Source: a virus
Length of the DNA stretch: 64,000 nt
Direction: 5' to 3' (one strand)
Virus record (IMG/VR): IMGVR_UViG_3300027793_000055
Coordinates: 1 to 64,000 of that record
Below the pieces are notes generated by a model. That model did no database searches. It was not told the DNA's origin and worked only from the letters and a program-made list of their open reading frames with translations. This document shows, one piece after another, positions 57,708-63,601 of this stretch (positions within the stretch are counted from its first letter, which is position 1; every line of letters starts with the position of its first letter). The translations under genes and the position numbers were made by a program.

Positions 57708-57937
57708 TCTTGCACCGTGCCACCTTTCGCTTTTAAATAATTAATTACAAAGTTACTTGCTGCTTGTGAACCAATATATACCATACTCAATTGCATCCAC
57801 TGTTCACCAGTAATATAGCCAAGTGGTACACCAATTGTACCAATAAACCAAACAAGTAACTTTCTACTTATAATCTTCTGTAAACCTCTGTCAACGACAG
57901 CGTTTCTTATCATTAATTTTGTTTCATCTGACATCAT
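57704..57937 (-). CDS. probable holin
   Basis: 77 residues from the ATG at 57937 (GAGG 6 nt upstream). Two hydrophobic stretches, roughly KLLVWFIGTIGVPLGYI and WMQLSMVYIGSQAASNFVI, with a charged N-terminus and short basic end. Size and topology fit a small class II holin that opens the inner membrane for the endolysins. Next to the spanin-like gene but far (over 50 kb) from the endolysin genes in this window. Confidence 0.6.
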   Translation of the reverse strand: MMSDETKLMIRNAVVDRGLQKIISRKLLVWFIGTIGVPLGYITGEQWMQLSMVYIGSQAASNFVINYLKAKGGTVQE

Positions 57938-57945
57938 TAAGCACC

Positions 57946-60540
57946 TCAAATATTCACCTTGGCAAAGCCACCGGATGATTCAATAATTATCTGTTCATCA
58001 ACAATATCTTTTAGTGCATCAAGATGTGAAATAAGAATAATTGCTTTGAATTGATTTTTAATTATATCAATTATTCTTACGAAACCTTCCATGTTCTCTT
58101 CATCCAAAGCCGTTGCTGGTTCATCAAGCACAAATAAATCACCAACTGGCAAGTTACTTACTTTAATAAGTGCAAGTCTGATAGCAATTGCGGCAATACT
58201 CTTTTCTGCTCCTGAACCCAATTCAATTGGACGTGGATCATATTTTGGATGCCGGATATAGATATCAAGTTTCTTGCCATCGTCTTCAAAGAAGATCTCA
58301 AAGTTAACAATATTTGATAGAATTTTAGCTATCTCTTGATTAATAACAGGAAGTCTCTTCTTGATAATATCATAAACAATTCCATTGCTATGCATAGTTT
58401 TTAAGAATAGATCATAAGCAAGGAATTCATCACGCAAATTGGCTAATTCAACCTTTTCACGTTCAAGTGTTTCCTTTTTATTTACCAATGAACCGTGTTC
58501 ACGATAAAGTTTTTGACTATCATTTTCGCAAGCTTCTAATGATATTTGAGATAAAATAATTTTTGTATCTATCTCTTTTTGCTCCTTTTTAATTTCTAAT
58601 AATTGCAACATCCAAGCTTCATTTTCGTGGTATACTTTTTGTAGATTTTCTAAATCTACCAACTCTTTTTCACAGGATACAAGACGATTCTTTGCTTTTT
58701 CCAATTTTAACTGGAAATCAGAAATTTCTTTTTCTAAAGTATTAAGGCTTGAATTTAATTGCTCAAATTTATTGATATGTTTCTGGGTTTCATCATTTTT
58801 AATCTTTTCTTCAACCTCTTTTAAAAGAGTTTCATTCTGAAGCAATTCTTTTTCTGTTTCTGGTACTATTTCTCGCTCTTTTGCTGCATCAACAAGAAAC
58901 TTACAGGATAAAAATTTATCACCACACGGAACGTTATCAAGAATAGAAATCTTTTTCTGTTGTTCACTCTGTTGTTTCTGCAGCATTTTAACGGCAGATT
59001 CAAGAAGAACAGCGTTTTTATTAAGTTTCTCTAATTCTTTTTTATCATTCTTGAGCTTTTCGTAATCATATTTTAGTAAAGATTCACTCAATTGAGTAAT
59101 AACCGGTTGACGCTTATCAATTTCCTTCTTATATTCCAGATTTTTATTATTAATTGTTTCTATCTCATCCTTTTTAGAGGAGATATCTTTTATAAGTTTA
59201 GCAATATCAATAAATTCCTGTTTTGGACCAGAAGCAATTTTACCTTTTAGTTCTGAAAGGTGAATATGGTGGTTATGAAGTTCTTCTTTCAGTTCTCCAC
59301 ATTTTGTTTTATTACGTTCTGTAAGAATTTCATTATCAACAATATCTGTAAGTGTCTTTGAAATTTCTGCATCAAAGTCTTTTCCTTCAAGACGTTTGAT
59401 GGCACCTTTCAAAAGGGCACTTTCATCTTTTGCTAATTTAAACTTCTTATCAAAGTGTTCAAGATCAAGGAATTTACCAAGAATCTCTTTACGTTTTGTT
59501 GAACCTTCATTAATAAATGCAAGTGAACCAACCTGACTTGTCATCGAGGTCAGAAGAAAATCATCAATTGTACCAAATACTTTACGGATATTTGCATCTG
59601 TTTCATTACGATCCAGACCATTTAGACTTTCTTTTTCACCCGTTGCATTATCAATAACTGAGAAATCAAGTGAAGTTTTAGCTTCAACTGTTTCTTCACC
59701 GTGTAATTTCTTTGTGTATTTCTTAGCTTCACGAGTAATACAATAGGTCTTATTATCAATCTGAATCTCAACGTAGCCGGATGCTTCATCACGATTCTGA
59801 TTAATAATATCAACATTCTTACGAACATTCTTTGAAATAGAATTAAAGATTGTCCAAAGAATAGAATCTACAACACTTGATTTACCGCTGTAATTCTTGC
59901 CAAAGATACCAAGAACACCATTGATATTAGTAAAGTCAACACTATTACCGGTTCCGTAGTTAAAAAGATTATTCCATTCAACTTTTTTAATTTTCCAATG
60001 CACGTTACGAGCAATATCATCACTTTGCTCGGCAAGTGTATTGTATTTACGGTTGAATTCAAATACCTTTTCTAATACAGTATCATTTAGCTTGTAGTCT
60101 TTTAGATATTCACCAATAAGTTTCTCTTGGGTTGCAAGATCGCGAAGGTTTTCGTGTTCAACTTCATTTGATAACTCTTCAACAGAAATACGCTTGCCGG
60201 GTTTATTCTGAACCGTTACTGATTCGGGTTTAAATCGATTCTTAGCGATATCTACAGACTTCTTGAGTGCTTGGAGGGAAATGTGATTATTCGACACCAA
60301 ACGCAGTTTAGCGCCTTCCTGAATAGCAATATCATCTGGAATATTACCATCTGGTGTAAGTTCAACTGTAATAAACGGTGTTGGGTGTGGAATAGCAACA
60401 TGGTTTACTGAGAATGCGTCTTTATCCTCAATTTCCCAAATTAAGAAACCCTTATCATTTGTTTCACCAAAGTTCTGCTGAACAGTTGAGCCAGGATATA
60501 CAAAATATGGTTTTTTTCTAATAATTTTAATTTTAGACAT
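57946..60540 (-). CDS. gp47 C-terminal part fused to gp46 (SbcC-like ATPase); piece B of split gene
   Basis: 864 residues. Residues 11-180 are the missing end of gp47: KPYFVYPGSTVQQNFGE, KGFLIWEIEDKDAF, PFITVELTPDG. From about 182 a complete gp46/SbcC follows. Its parts are IKKVEWNNLFNYG, Walker A GIFGKNYSGKSS at 211-222, two coiled-coil arms with a Cys pair at the hook (PCGDKFLSCKF), signature ELGSGAEKSIAAIA and Walker B DLFVLDEPATALDEEN. With piece A it forms the recombination exonuclease that resects DNA ends. AAAGGA for this ATG lies in the end of the homing endonuclease. Confidence 0.9.
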   Translation of the reverse strand: MSKIKIIRKKPYFVYPGSTVQQNFGETNDKGFLIWEIEDKDAFSVNHVAIPHPTPFITVELTPDGNIPDDIAIQEGAKLRLVSNNHISLQALKKSVDIAKNRFKPESVTVQNKPGKRISVEELSNEVEHENLRDLATQEKLIGEYLKDYKLNDTVLEKVFEFNRKYNTLAEQSDDIARNVHWKIKKVEWNNLFNYGTGNSVDFTNINGVLGIFGKNYSGKSSVVDSILWTIFNSISKNVRKNVDIINQNRDEASGYVEIQIDNKTYCITREAKKYTKKLHGEETVEAKTSLDFSVIDNATGEKESLNGLDRNETDANIRKVFGTIDDFLLTSMTSQVGSLAFINEGSTKRKEILGKFLDLEHFDKKFKLAKDESALLKGAIKRLEGKDFDAEISKTLTDIVDNEILTERNKTKCGELKEELHNHHIHLSELKGKIASGPKQEFIDIAKLIKDISSKKDEIETINNKNLEYKKEIDKRQPVITQLSESLLKYDYEKLKNDKKELEKLNKNAVLLESAVKMLQKQQSEQQKKISILDNVPCGDKFLSCKFLVDAAKEREIVPETEKELLQNETLLKEVEEKIKNDETQKHINKFEQLNSSLNTLEKEISDFQLKLEKAKNRLVSCEKELVDLENLQKVYHENEAWMLQLLEIKKEQKEIDTKIILSQISLEACENDSQKLYREHGSLVNKKETLEREKVELANLRDEFLAYDLFLKTMHSNGIVYDIIKKRLPVINQEIAKILSNIVNFEIFFEDDGKKLDIYIRHPKYDPRPIELGSGAEKSIAAIAIRLALIKVSNLPVGDLFVLDEPATALDEENMEGFVRIIDIIKNQFKAIILISHLDALKDIVDEQIIIESSGGFAKVNI

Positions 60541-61200
60541 TCAGAAATCCTTTAAAGTATTCAAAATCAAACTTGCTTTTTCTTTTTTTCTTTTAAAGCC
60601 CAAGTCATCTTCAAAAGCATAAAGATAATTTATAAGTTTCAGGCTATCTTTTTGATTTGTGATTCTTATTTGTGAATAAGAGGACTTTTGTTTTTTTACT
60701 CTTCTAATAGAATATTTAATATTTAAGTTTTTATATATATTTTCCAAAAAAGTCCAATCTTGTTCGTATGTACTTGTTGCTGTACACTGGACTGCTTTAC
60801 TGATATTATTAAAATAGAAGCAGCCATCACCATCCCAATATCCTCTTAACCAATAATTTTTTAAATTATCTGGTATTTTTTGTAAAATTTTATCCGCACT
60901 TGCATATGATTTTTTATCATAATCGTTATTTTTCAAAAACATTGAAAATTCTTTATTAGATATGTGGTAAACCATTTGCGGTTTCCAGTCTTCTCTATTG
61001 CGATATCTTATATTCCATTCTCCGGTATCTAGAAAAACTTTTCTTAAAGATTCTATATCCTCTTTAACACTCTCTAGAGAAATCATATTACCGCACATTG
61101 AGCCATCTGCCCATAGTAGACCGAGAATATAGCAAGTATATTCATTGATATTGTCTGTAAACAGATTGTTTTTAATATTATTAATTTTTTGTTTCGGCAT
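60541..61200 (-). CDS. LAGLIDADG homing endonuclease inserted between gp47 and gp46 pieces
   Basis: 219 residues with two LAGLIDADG-type motifs: YILGLLWADGS near 26-36 and YWLRGYWDGDGCF near 116-128, so a monomeric enzyme. It separates gp47 piece A from piece B, and its TGA is directly followed by the ATG of piece B. The 51-nt leader holds a hairpin that hides its ribosome binding site with a late-type motif in the loop. There is no room for a group I intron core, so it is a free-standing insertion. Confidence 0.9.
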   Translation of the reverse strand: MPKQKINNIKNNLFTDNINEYTCYILGLLWADGSMCGNMISLESVKEDIESLRKVFLDTGEWNIRYRNREDWKPQMVYHISNKEFSMFLKNNDYDKKSYASADKILQKIPDNLKNYWLRGYWDGDGCFYFNNISKAVQCTATSTYEQDWTFLENIYKNLNIKYSIRRVKKQKSSYSQIRITNQKDSLKLINYLYAFEDDLGFKRKKEKASLILNTLKDF

Positions 61201-61204
61201 AGAT

Positions 61205-61240
61205 CTCCTAGGTATTATTCATAAATAGTATAACTAGAAG
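61205..61240 (-). promoter_or_regulatory. hairpin hiding the homing endonuclease ribosome binding site
   Basis: Coding strand: CTTCTAGTTAT, 14-nt loop, ATACCTAGGAG, then ATCTATG. Eleven positions pair with one mismatch and one G-T; the 3' arm contains GGAG. The loop holds ACTATTTATGAATA. Long transcripts would fold and block translation; a transcript started from the loop would not. Confidence 0.65.
61220..61228 (-). promoter_or_regulatory. late-type motif CTATTTATG (homing endonuclease)
   Basis: Lies in the loop of the hairpin above, 20-28 nt upstream of the LAGLIDADG start. Confidence 0.5.
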
Positions 61241-61251
61241 CAATTAATAAT

Positions 61252-61905
61252 TTATTTTTTAATCCAACCCTGTTCAATATACAATGGTAGCTCTTCTTCG
61301 TCAATCTCTTTTTCTTCTATGCTCATTTCTTGAACAACCTGAAATGTCTTGTGGATATCGCCAGCCATTACATAATCGTGACCAGTAAAAGCAGAAATAT
61401 CATGATCACCATGATCCATAACATATCCCATATCTGTTAGAACACCAGATACAGAGCCGTGATAAAGAGCAATATTGATCTTTGATGGATCACTAATTTT
61501 CTGCCAATTTCCTTCATCAAAAATAGAAAGAACATTAAGAGTAATTTGTTCACTAATAGATACTTCACCTGAATCTTTTAAAAGATGAAGTTGGTTGTGT
61601 TGTAATGCTTGTACAATTGGTGTAATTGCATCCTGACGACCGCCATTTTTAAGGTTACCGTCGTGATTACCCAATAAGACATATGTGGGTGCAATATCTG
61701 CCAGATTCTTAAGGAATTCTGTTGCAAGTTCAAAGAATTCTGGACTTAATTGTGTTTTGGTATGTGCAATATCACCACAATGAACAATATAATCTACTTT
61801 TTGTTCACGTAGCTTGCTATAAATTTGTGAGAAAATCTCACGATATTCTTTATGAAATTTTAGGTTTCTTATGTGGGTGTCCGATAGATGGCAGATCTTA
61901 ATCAT
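61252..61905 (-). CDS. gp47-like nuclease N-terminal part; piece A of split gene
   Basis: 217 residues. All metallophosphoesterase motifs of SbcD/gp47 are present: HLSDTHIRN (Asp9, His11), HCGDIAH (Asp45), LLGNHDG (Asn80, His81), LYHGSVSG (His149) and MAGDIHK (His185). It then ends EEELPLYIEQGWIKK and stops, where the family would continue into a YPGSTVQQNFGE strand. That continuation is found at residue 15 of the 57946-60540 product. GGAG before the ATG lies in the end of the GIY-YIG gene. Active once paired with piece B. Confidence 0.9.
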   Translation of the reverse strand: MIKICHLSDTHIRNLKFHKEYREIFSQIYSKLREQKVDYIVHCGDIAHTKTQLSPEFFELATEFLKNLADIAPTYVLLGNHDGNLKNGGRQDAITPIVQALQHNQLHLLKDSGEVSISEQITLNVLSIFDEGNWQKISDPSKINIALYHGSVSGVLTDMGYVMDHGDHDISAFTGHDYVMAGDIHKTFQVVQEMSIEEKEIDEEELPLYIEQGWIKK

Positions 61906-62605
61906 CTTTTCTCCATATTTTATTATTTACAATATTCGAAATATTTGTGGCACAAGTATCAAAAATTAATGCTATATCTTTTAGCATCATTCCTTCTTTC
62001 GCCAATCTTCTTATTTCTTCTACTTTTTCCCAATTCAATTTAGAATGAGGGTTTTTTTCACCTTTTTTGCCATTACTGATTTTTATTTTTGTTTCTTCGC
62101 TTCTCTTACCTGTTGAATAAATTCCTTTTTTACCTTTATTCCAAGGAATTTGTCCTTTTTTAAATTTTGTTTTTATTTTATTTTTATGTTCGTCTGTTAG
62201 ATTTTTACCTTTATTCCAAGGATCCTTACCGAACATTCCATTATTTTCTACTACTTTCCCTTCTGAAATTATCTTTTTTGTTTCTTCGCTATGTTTTCCA
62301 TAAGAACCACCACCTTTTAGATTAAAACCTTTATCTAAATTTCTTGTTTCATAAAATATTATGAATCTATCTTCTTCTTCATCTAATTCTTTTTTGGAAT
62401 AACATTCTTTTAATATTTCCCACTCAAAATTTTCAATTCCATATTTTTTTATGGCGCTGTGAAAATAGTCATATTTAGGATTTTTACTTGCGTGTTTATG
62501 TTCGGAAACTCTTCTTGCTAAATGTTTAACGGTTTGTCCTATATAAAGTCTTCCGTCTATTTTTAAAGTTGCTTTATAAATTATTCCATATATTAATTTG
62601 CTCAT
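61898..62605 (-). CDS. GIY-YIG homing endonuclease
   Basis: 235 residues. GIIYKATLKIDGRLYIGQTV is the GIY-YIG motif (residues 7-26), with the catalytic Arg in LARRVSEH and a later Glu. The middle has NUMOD-type repeats (GMFGKDPWNKGK, GQIPWNKGKKG) and the end a helix-turn-helix (KLNWEKVEEIRRLAKEGM...ISNIV). It lies between primase and gp47 and overlaps the gp47 start by 8 nt, as free-standing T4 seg-type genes do. Confidence 0.9.
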   Translation of the reverse strand: MSKLIYGIIYKATLKIDGRLYIGQTVKHLARRVSEHKHASKNPKYDYFHSAIKKYGIENFEWEILKECYSKKELDEEEDRFIIFYETRNLDKGFNLKGGGSYGKHSEETKKIISEGKVVENNGMFGKDPWNKGKNLTDEHKNKIKTKFKKGQIPWNKGKKGIYSTGKRSEETKIKISNGKKGEKNPHSKLNWEKVEEIRRLAKEGMMLKDIALIFDTCATNISNIVNNKIWRKDD

Positions 62606-62608
62606 ATA

Positions 62609-62642
62609 TCAGATACTCCTATATTAATTAGTATCTATCTGA
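62609..62642 (-). promoter_or_regulatory. inverted repeat around the GIY-YIG ribosome binding site
   Basis: Coding strand: TCAGATA, 20 nt, TATCTGA, or the alternative AGATACT, 12 nt, AGTATCT. Either fold encloses AGGAG. Possible translational control. Confidence 0.45.
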
Positions 62643-62662
62643 AATATGTGCAATTTTATACA

Positions 62663-63601
62663 TTAAATCACCAACTTGAATGCTTTTTGAATAAACGAGT
62701 CTTGTGTCATTAGGGTTGCTCGTTTTTTACGACGTGAAAATTCAAGTGTTGACATTTCACCAACATCTTTATACCCCGTCACGTCTATCTTGTAAAGTTC
62801 TACATCATACGACATTAAACTACGAATAAGGTAGTTTGTCTTTCTCTCTGCATCTGGATCTAGTGCAATATAGATCGGAGTATCATGTTTTGTTATTTCC
62901 TGAAATAGTTTAGAATCTTCTCTAAGAGTTGAACCTAATATTGGTACGGCGTTGCCTGCTTTAATGGCATCAAATACTCCTTCGACCAATACAAGATCAC
63001 TTTTCCAGTCAATAAACAAATCATTAAAAATAATATCTTTGCTTGTTGCTGGATTCATATAATTGGGTCTTTCTCCTGTATATGAGCGGGCAATAAAATA
63101 ATTGCAATATCCTTCACGATTAAAAGAAGGTACAATTATTCTATTTTTGTACATACCTTCCTTGCAATAGCCAATTTTCCAGCGAACAATATCTTCTTTT
63201 TCTAGGCCACGCTGTTGTAGGTATTTTAAAGGTTCTCTAGAAGAAAATGGTAAATTGTTATTTGCTAATGAAATAAATTCTTTTGGTAAAGAAATATGAC
63301 TTTCTTCTATCTTCTTGGTTGGAAAAAGAATATCTACAAGTGATTGGCTGATTTCTACTTCACCAGTTAAAGTTTCCCAAGTATGTTTTTGAGAAAAATT
63401 ACCATATTTACGAACTAATCTGCTTAGATTTGTGCCTTTATAATTGCAAAGCCAACATTTAAATACATTTTTTTGAATATTGACAGAAAGTTTTTTCTTT
63501 TCACTTTTACACTTTGGGCAGTAAAAAAGTAATTCCCCACCTTGTCGGAGGGGATTACCTAAAATATCAACTAAGATCTGCTGTTTCTGTTCTTGTGACA
63601 T
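62663..63601 (-). CDS. DNA primase (T4 gp61 / DnaG type)
   Basis: 312 residues. N-terminal zinc ribbon (YCPKCKSEKKK ... FKCWLCNYKG, Cys at about 28, 31, 49 and 52), then a TOPRIM core: GLEKEDIVRWKIGYC, GMYKNRIIVPSF, DLVLVEGVFDAIKAG (catalytic Glu) and IYIALDPDAERK (Asp-x-Asp). Makes RNA primers for lagging-strand synthesis with the gp41-like helicase. Promoter P6 sits right upstream. Confidence 0.9.
   Translation of the reverse strand: MSQEQKQQILVDILGNPLRQGGELLFYCPKCKSEKKKLSVNIQKNVFKCWLCNYKGTNLSRLVRKYGNFSQKHTWETLTGEVEISQSLVDILFPTKKIEESHISLPKEFISLANNNLPFSSREPLKYLQQRGLEKEDIVRWKIGYCKEGMYKNRIIVPSFNREGYCNYFIARSYTGERPNYMNPATSKDIIFNDLFIDWKSDLVLVEGVFDAIKAGNAVPILGSTLREDSKLFQEITKHDTPIYIALDPDAERKTNYLIRSLMSYDVELYKIDVTGYKDVGEMSTLEFSRRKKRATLMTQDSFIQKAFKLVI

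Follow-up and report, generated by a model that had tools for sequence, protein, structure and literature searches.

In the window, a stretch of 64,000 nucleotides (nt) that makes up positions 1 to 64,000 of the virus record IMGVR_UViG_3300027793_000055 from IMG/VR, we found the gene for the phage recombination nuclease gp47-gp46 (the SbcD-SbcC or Mre11-Rad50 type) in two pieces, A and B, with a free-standing LAGLIDADG homing-endonuclease gene between them (Table 1). As read from the comparison with relatives, the ancestor is a single gp47-gp46 fusion and the split in the window is derived, and homing-endonuclease insertion, as a class, is what caused the split. It is highly probable that the fused gene was broken by a homing-endonuclease cassette into two chains which reassemble through a new tail on A and a new head on B. 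The three open reading frames (ORFs) lie where the original prediction, made from the letters alone, had placed them, and the ORF list, Pfam and PHROG agree with it that A carries the phosphoesterase motifs and that B carries the missing gp47 strands followed by gp46. The virus record to which the window belongs is 187,750 bp long and includes genes for terminase, portal and capsid; B is present in one copy, and the LAGLIDADG gene is likewise single in the 187.75-kb record.

Piece A matches the Pfam family Metallophos (8e-14) and the SbcD PHROG (2e-19), and all of its metal-site motifs are present (SDTH, CGDIAH, GNHD, YHG and GDIH), with D9, D45, N80, H81, H149, G182, D183 and H185 invariant among 38 homologues. 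Throughout the phage A family the fifth phosphoesterase motif is GDIH rather than the usual GHxH (residue 183), so that one usual metal ligand is replaced. The Mre11 fold with its capping domain was recovered by a profile search, which matched Mre11/SbcD structures (3qg5, 9e-16), and Foldseek with the model of locus L091, a homologue of B, matched 3qg5 (1.9e-11) and 6s6v. Piece B matches the SbcC PHROG (2.8e-55) and Pfam SMC_N over residues 184-842, and L091 matches Rad50 structures (2.5e-10). The interrupting gene matches LAGLIDADG_3 (1.5e-7) and LAGLIDADG_1 (1.2e-6), both above the Pfam cut-off, with LLWADG and YWDGDG in one chain.

Scanning IMG/VR with A and B returned ~160 loci, and in nearly all of them the two matches share one frame of ~1050 codons. 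The nearest relatives by B are all intact, namely L005 (80% identical) and L006/L007 (74%), and Microcystis phage Mel-JY01 also carries an uninterrupted fusion; a nucleotide search of phages with the locus gave no match, the sequences being too divergent. Since almost all relatives, the nearest included, encode A and B as one chain, the ancestor was fused, as had been predicted, and the two-gene state arose later. Mre11/Rad50 single-chain fusions have been described from Mimivirus, Bacillus phage 0305phi8-36 and aquatic viral metagenomes (PMC3175470), and the intact relatives found here are of the same kind; that paper describes no splitting by endonucleases (the words 'homing' and 'split' do not occur in it). 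As a separate observation, the last ~61 codons of gp46 occur once more, in diverged form (67-70%), 3′ of an intact fused gene in L018 (4185-5068) and L028 (7714-7896), and in L018 a GIY-YIG endonuclease gene precedes the extra end, like a homing gene bringing a replacement 3′ end of its target.

The native junction of the fused genes is 16-17 residues long and in one frame, for example GDIHKTNQVLDTEGRVRYPGSTVQQNFGE. In the window, A stops 31 residues past GDIHK, its last metal motif, and B picks up at YPGSTVQQNFGE. The prediction that A ends where the last gp47 strands should begin holds in that B resumes with these strands; it needs correction in that the last ~30 residues of A and the first 14 of B are non-native to gp47, as insertion-associated tails missing from the intact genes. 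The TGA of the endonuclease gene abuts the ATG of B, and the AAAGGA in its 3′ end bears out the claim that the endonuclease supplies the ribosome binding site of B. A gp47 that naturally ends at GWIKK beside an unfused gp46 was considered and rejected, as such a tail is found in split or re-fused copies only and the closest relatives are fused.

The break at this one β-hairpin turn recurs in many lineages, further split loci having been found by a search with the A-tail motif, and four endonuclease types occupy it: LAGLIDADG (the window), TnsA-like (L002, the jumbo phage LR756508), HNH-like (L075) and DUF559/Vsr-like (L172 and L202), where the HNH-like and DUF559/Vsr-like types are assigned from sequence and the HNH domain of L075 matched no library model. 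The endonucleases of L075, L172 and L202 have a common targeting part (33-37% identity), and the nuclease end of L075 differs, which fits the re-use of one target site by nucleases that may have been exchanged. An empty/occupied allele pair is formed by L073 (intact) and L075 (HNH-split), which are 98.6% identical over 8.2 kb from exactly the YPGST codons; the L075 contig keeps just the last 26 residues of A, so that the insert is seen without its left edge. The distance from the stop of A to the start of B is 2272, 924, 914, 711 (the window), 430, 216, 137, 133, 76, 69, 42 or 15 nt, and in the tightest arrangements the genes overlap by 4 or 8 nt. Of the representative splits with a spacer of at least 69 nt, 10/10 contain either an endonuclease or a fossil that can be recognised as one; the fossils include an HNH C-terminus in L168 (59% identity), a TnsA-like remnant in L169 (40%), both ends of the L172 gene in L173, and those of L177, L203 and L227. 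Several lineages have kept the split after losing the endonuclease, with genes overlapping by 4 nt. Because endonuclease genes or their fossils hold the same breakpoint in other lineages, insertion is the right kind of cause. In addition, the spacer of L202 (2724-5022) holds, beside the DUF559/Vsr-like endonuclease, a gene for a DNA methyltransferase and a fragment that resembles a protease, and L203 is a shrunken, fused remnant of L202. In L170/L171 (3501-5132), a split gp47 piece with the GNHDC motif is also broken by an in-frame, intein-like insert of ~300 residues with a LAGLIDADG-like region (CFTPNHEVLTKTG ... ISGN|C).

The break has also been healed. In L166/L091, a 154-nt deletion relative to the near twin L168 took out the stop, the fossil and the start, and the A tail and B head remain as a 48-residue scar linker; L115, a sister of L166/L091 and L168, has a native 17-residue junction. 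A quick maximum-likelihood tree of B (80 rows, with some long branches) requires the split/fused label to switch 13 times, and good branch support makes 12 of these switches unavoidable; they are a mixture of gains, losses and gene conversion. In L206 and L228, the acidic/basic linker of the fused gene is also longer than usual (38 and 34 residues), possibly as an independent re-fusion scar.

The new ends carry opposite charges. The A tail was acidic (mean −6.6) in 20/20 and the B head basic (mean +5.4) in 20/20 of the distinct split pairs scored, which are not 20 independent trials because related lineages share tails by descent. Intact junctions had a mean charge of +0.3 (n = 215, range −2 to +4, some contigs having been fetched twice), and 1.3% of background ORFs in the same loci combine an acidic end with a basic start at comparable cut-offs. 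The A-tail motif (D/E-rich, L..Y[LP]..GW) was not found outside the gp47-gp46 junction in six frames of the loci collected by then, a tail search in bacterial and archaeal genomes found none, and a linker peptide search in phage records gave chance matches alone (E>1). In four loci (L075, L168, L172 and L202) the codons of the B head lie within the endonuclease gene's own 3′ end, in another frame, so the head of these loci originates in the mobile gene; the endonuclease and B ORFs of the window only abut.

The re-fused L091 shows how the two ends may fit together. AlphaFold2 modelled its residues 1-395 as an Mre11 fold with a predicted local distance difference test score (pLDDT) of 88 and a predicted template modelling score of 0.81. 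The scar in this model consists of a strand (197-200), a helix (203-211), a strand (215-218), a turn (219-220) and a strand (221-224), followed by the native YPGST strand, and the split point is the turn 219-220, between the strands EIVE and KIRK. Piece A of the window modelled alone has a pLDDT of 88 except at residues 188-194 (<50), with a tail helix at 203-211 as in L091. Because of the scar fold and the same helix in the window A tail, an intermolecular hairpin is predicted between the acidic strand of A and the basic strand of B, and by analogy with the NrdA of Aeromonas phage Aeh1 the tail and head would act as a docking module.

We propose that an ancestral single-chain gp47-gp46 (Mre11-Rad50) nuclease was invaded by a mobile homing-endonuclease cassette, which would have entered the β-hairpin turn between the GDIHK metal motif and the YPGST strand. 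The cassette would give A its stop codon and acidic tail, and B its ribosome-binding site, start codon and basic head. A and B would then be made as two chains that reassemble, and the lost turn would be replaced by an intermolecular module of strand-helix-strand plus strand, to which tail and head both contribute. Since the cut gene no longer contains the target, homing would spread the split allele. Besides the shared descent of the tails, several points weigh against this account. The IMG/VR search found no relatives of the window LAGLIDADG gene, and the window has no same-species intact allele, the closest being L005 at 80% identity. In addition, the A-tail motif is common to splits with four unrelated endonuclease types, and because similar tails adjoin unrelated endonucleases, the LAGLIDADG gene may have moved in later instead of making the cut. 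Thus, of the prediction that insertion of an endonuclease made the break, the mechanism is upheld by the endonucleases and fossils at the same point elsewhere, and the role of this particular gene is left in doubt.

The alternative that follows from the last point, that an older event split the gene and the LAGLIDADG gene colonised the spacer later as a tenant, is possible although we consider it the less probable course. Along with the common tail motif, it is favoured by the occurrence of endonuclease-free splits and by the exchange of occupants, as L075, L172 and L202 share the targeting part but differ in their nuclease ends. The same ambiguity has been discussed for gene 43 of Aeromonas phages 25/44RR, for which a review leaves it ambiguous whether the split preceded the endonuclease (PMC2988022). 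However, the endonuclease-free spacers of at least 69 nt hold endonuclease fossils, so an endonuclease still seems to have been the splitter even if the occupant changed, and the nearest relatives of the window are all intact, so that two successive events would have had to fit into a short time, except if the split junction arrived in one piece. A stronger form, in which the split is primary and the endonuclease incidental, is weakened by the same fossils.

It is unlikely that the split inactivated the nuclease and left the window phage with a dead gene whose pieces, A and B, are decaying. The low-confidence segment of A in the model (residues 188-194) would agree with decay, but both pieces are full length with catalytic motifs, ATPase motifs and start signals intact. 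Moreover, the split pair L193/L194 has a ratio of nonsynonymous to synonymous substitution rates of 0.020 for A and 0.049 for B, and L202/L203 one of 0.027 for A. This strong purifying selection on both pieces, together with the 4-nt gene overlaps in lineages that retain the split after endonuclease loss, argues for working two-chain enzymes in the split relatives, and the split nuclease is probably functional.

Removal of the insert as a group I/II intron, or joining of the parts by a split intein, is very improbable, even though introns and inteins often house LAGLIDADG enzymes and fractured genes with split inteins reportedly exist (Dassa 2009, cited in PMC10448857). Splicing is unlikely because Rfam gave no match to a group I/II intron core over 57900-63000, with matches considered up to E=1, because translation of A ends at a stop codon of its own, and because the gene in between is an entire ORF; in addition, the 711-nt insert holds a 660-nt ORF and leaves little room for an intron core. 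A split intein was rejected, as the A tail (~30 residues) and B head (14 residues) are far too short and Pfam gave no match to a Hint domain. An assembly artefact or chimeric metagenomic contig, which the single assembled IMG/VR record and the mosaic first ~120 codons of A could suggest, is hardly credible, since many other, independent contigs have the same architecture, as does LR756508, the record of a jumbo phage, and the reading frames and junctions are clean.

The locus is a mosaic. The first ~120 residues of A are ~75% identical to L086/L129 versus 52-57% to L005/L006, while residues 121-187 are 77% like L005, the primase upstream is 83-90% identical to that of L005/L006, and B is 80% L005-like. 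The seemingly foreign tract lies between two endonuclease genes, which fits co-conversion during homing. The second of these genes sits between the primase and gp47, and L005 has a weakly similar gene (26%) at the same place.

Table 1. Features of the split gp47-gp46 locus (coordinates in the window)
Feature	Coordinates	Strand	Remarks
Piece B: last gp47 strands (YPGSTVQQNFGE...), capping and Rad50-binding region, full gp46/SbcC/Rad50-type ATPase	57946..60540	-	864 residues
Basic N-terminal head of B, MSKIKIIRKKPYFV	60499..60540	-	Net charge +5; without counterpart in intact fused relatives
Free-standing two-motif LAGLIDADG homing-endonuclease gene	60541..61200	-	219 residues, intact ORF; LGLLWADG and LRGYWDGDG
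Shine-Dalgarno-like AAAGGA for B	60548..60553	-	Within the 3′ end of the endonuclease coding sequence
Gap from A stop to endonuclease start	61201..61251	-	51 nt; own Shine-Dalgarno-like AGGAG
Piece A: gp47/SbcD/Mre11-type phosphoesterase domain	61252..61905	-	217 residues, own stop codon
Acidic C-terminal tail of A, ~residues 188-217	61255..61344	-	Net charge ~−6; without counterpart in intact fused relatives
Putative foreign tract, first ~120 codons of A	61546..61905	-	From identity comparison with relatives
Second homing-endonuclease gene, GIY-YIG with NUMOD3 repeats, directly upstream of A	61898..62605	-	Its end overlaps the A start

Genes split by endonucleases are known from Aeh1 NrdA/MobE, T4 gp39/mobA/gp60 and phage 25 gene 43, and the split Aeh1 NrdA enzyme is functional (PMC2988022). 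To judge by its title, a study of Aeh1 NrdA reports the tails as assembly domains (Crona 2011, cited in PMC3267527). In Aeh1 (NrdA-a/MobE/NrdA-b) a free-standing homing-endonuclease gene likewise cuts an essential phage enzyme into two chains, and the window shares with this type a host gene that is uninterrupted in relatives and new terminal tails at the break. The tails of Aeh1 NrdA are said to be essential. The two systems differ in that Aeh1 has NrdA with an HNH endonuclease whereas the window has gp47-gp46 with a LAGLIDADG enzyme, and in that the gp47-gp46 break is recurrent over many lineages, with fossils, gene overlaps and re-fusions. In T4, an HNH endonuclease that is now a pseudogene lies between the halves of a topoisomerase gene which Aeh1 and phage 25 have in one piece; the T4 split differs from the present case in being confined to one lineage, in affecting another enzyme and in the translational bypass inside gene 60. 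In Aeromonas phage 25 (43A/GIY-YIG gene/43B) the DNA polymerase is split, with an endonuclease in the gap. Opposite charges were also seen at these breaks, in segments picked by eye against intact homologues, which makes them a lead and not a test: the NrdA-a tail is +6 and the NrdA-b head −10 in Aeh1 (L176, 41489-44628), with the polarity reversed compared to the acidic A and basic B here; the gp39 tail is −7 and the gp60 head +6 in T4 (L274, 2458-5328); and the 43A end is +6 and the 43B start −6 in phage 25 (L275, 19087-22956), where the measured ends overlap native sequence. Fractured genes with split inteins (Dassa 2009) also have an endonuclease gene between host-gene halves, but here there are short charged tails instead of intein parts. 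The original prediction knew of no such case for the recombination nuclease; we found no description of a split gp46/47 in the literature searched, which omitted most subscription journals, although the break itself turns out to recur in many relatives. Thus, the kind of split is known, and the target gene and the complete series of insertion, decay and repair are new within the searches made.

Tentatively, the tail and head may be a transferable docking module brought by the splitting endonucleases, which would be a third way, besides introns and inteins, to spare the host gene. One rule of opposite charges would then apply to gp47-gp46, NrdA, topoisomerase and possibly DNA polymerase, and in phage populations the gene would go round a cycle in which it is intact, invaded, fossil, permanently divided in two, and re-fused. 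With a few single examples of endonuclease-broken genes known, it was unclear whether rejoining tails arise by luck or are a solution of general use. Here several endonuclease families have struck a single site time and again, and all intermediates are still to be seen, so that the origin of split proteins and the fate of homing genes can be tested directly. The choice of target is telling, as gp46/47-type nucleases are thought to join, 'possibly', in the break repair on which homing depends (PMC2988022). Taken together, the gp47-gp46 locus offers a natural series for how viruses survive gene-breaking parasites, in which the break arises many times, fossilises, becomes permanent and occasionally heals.

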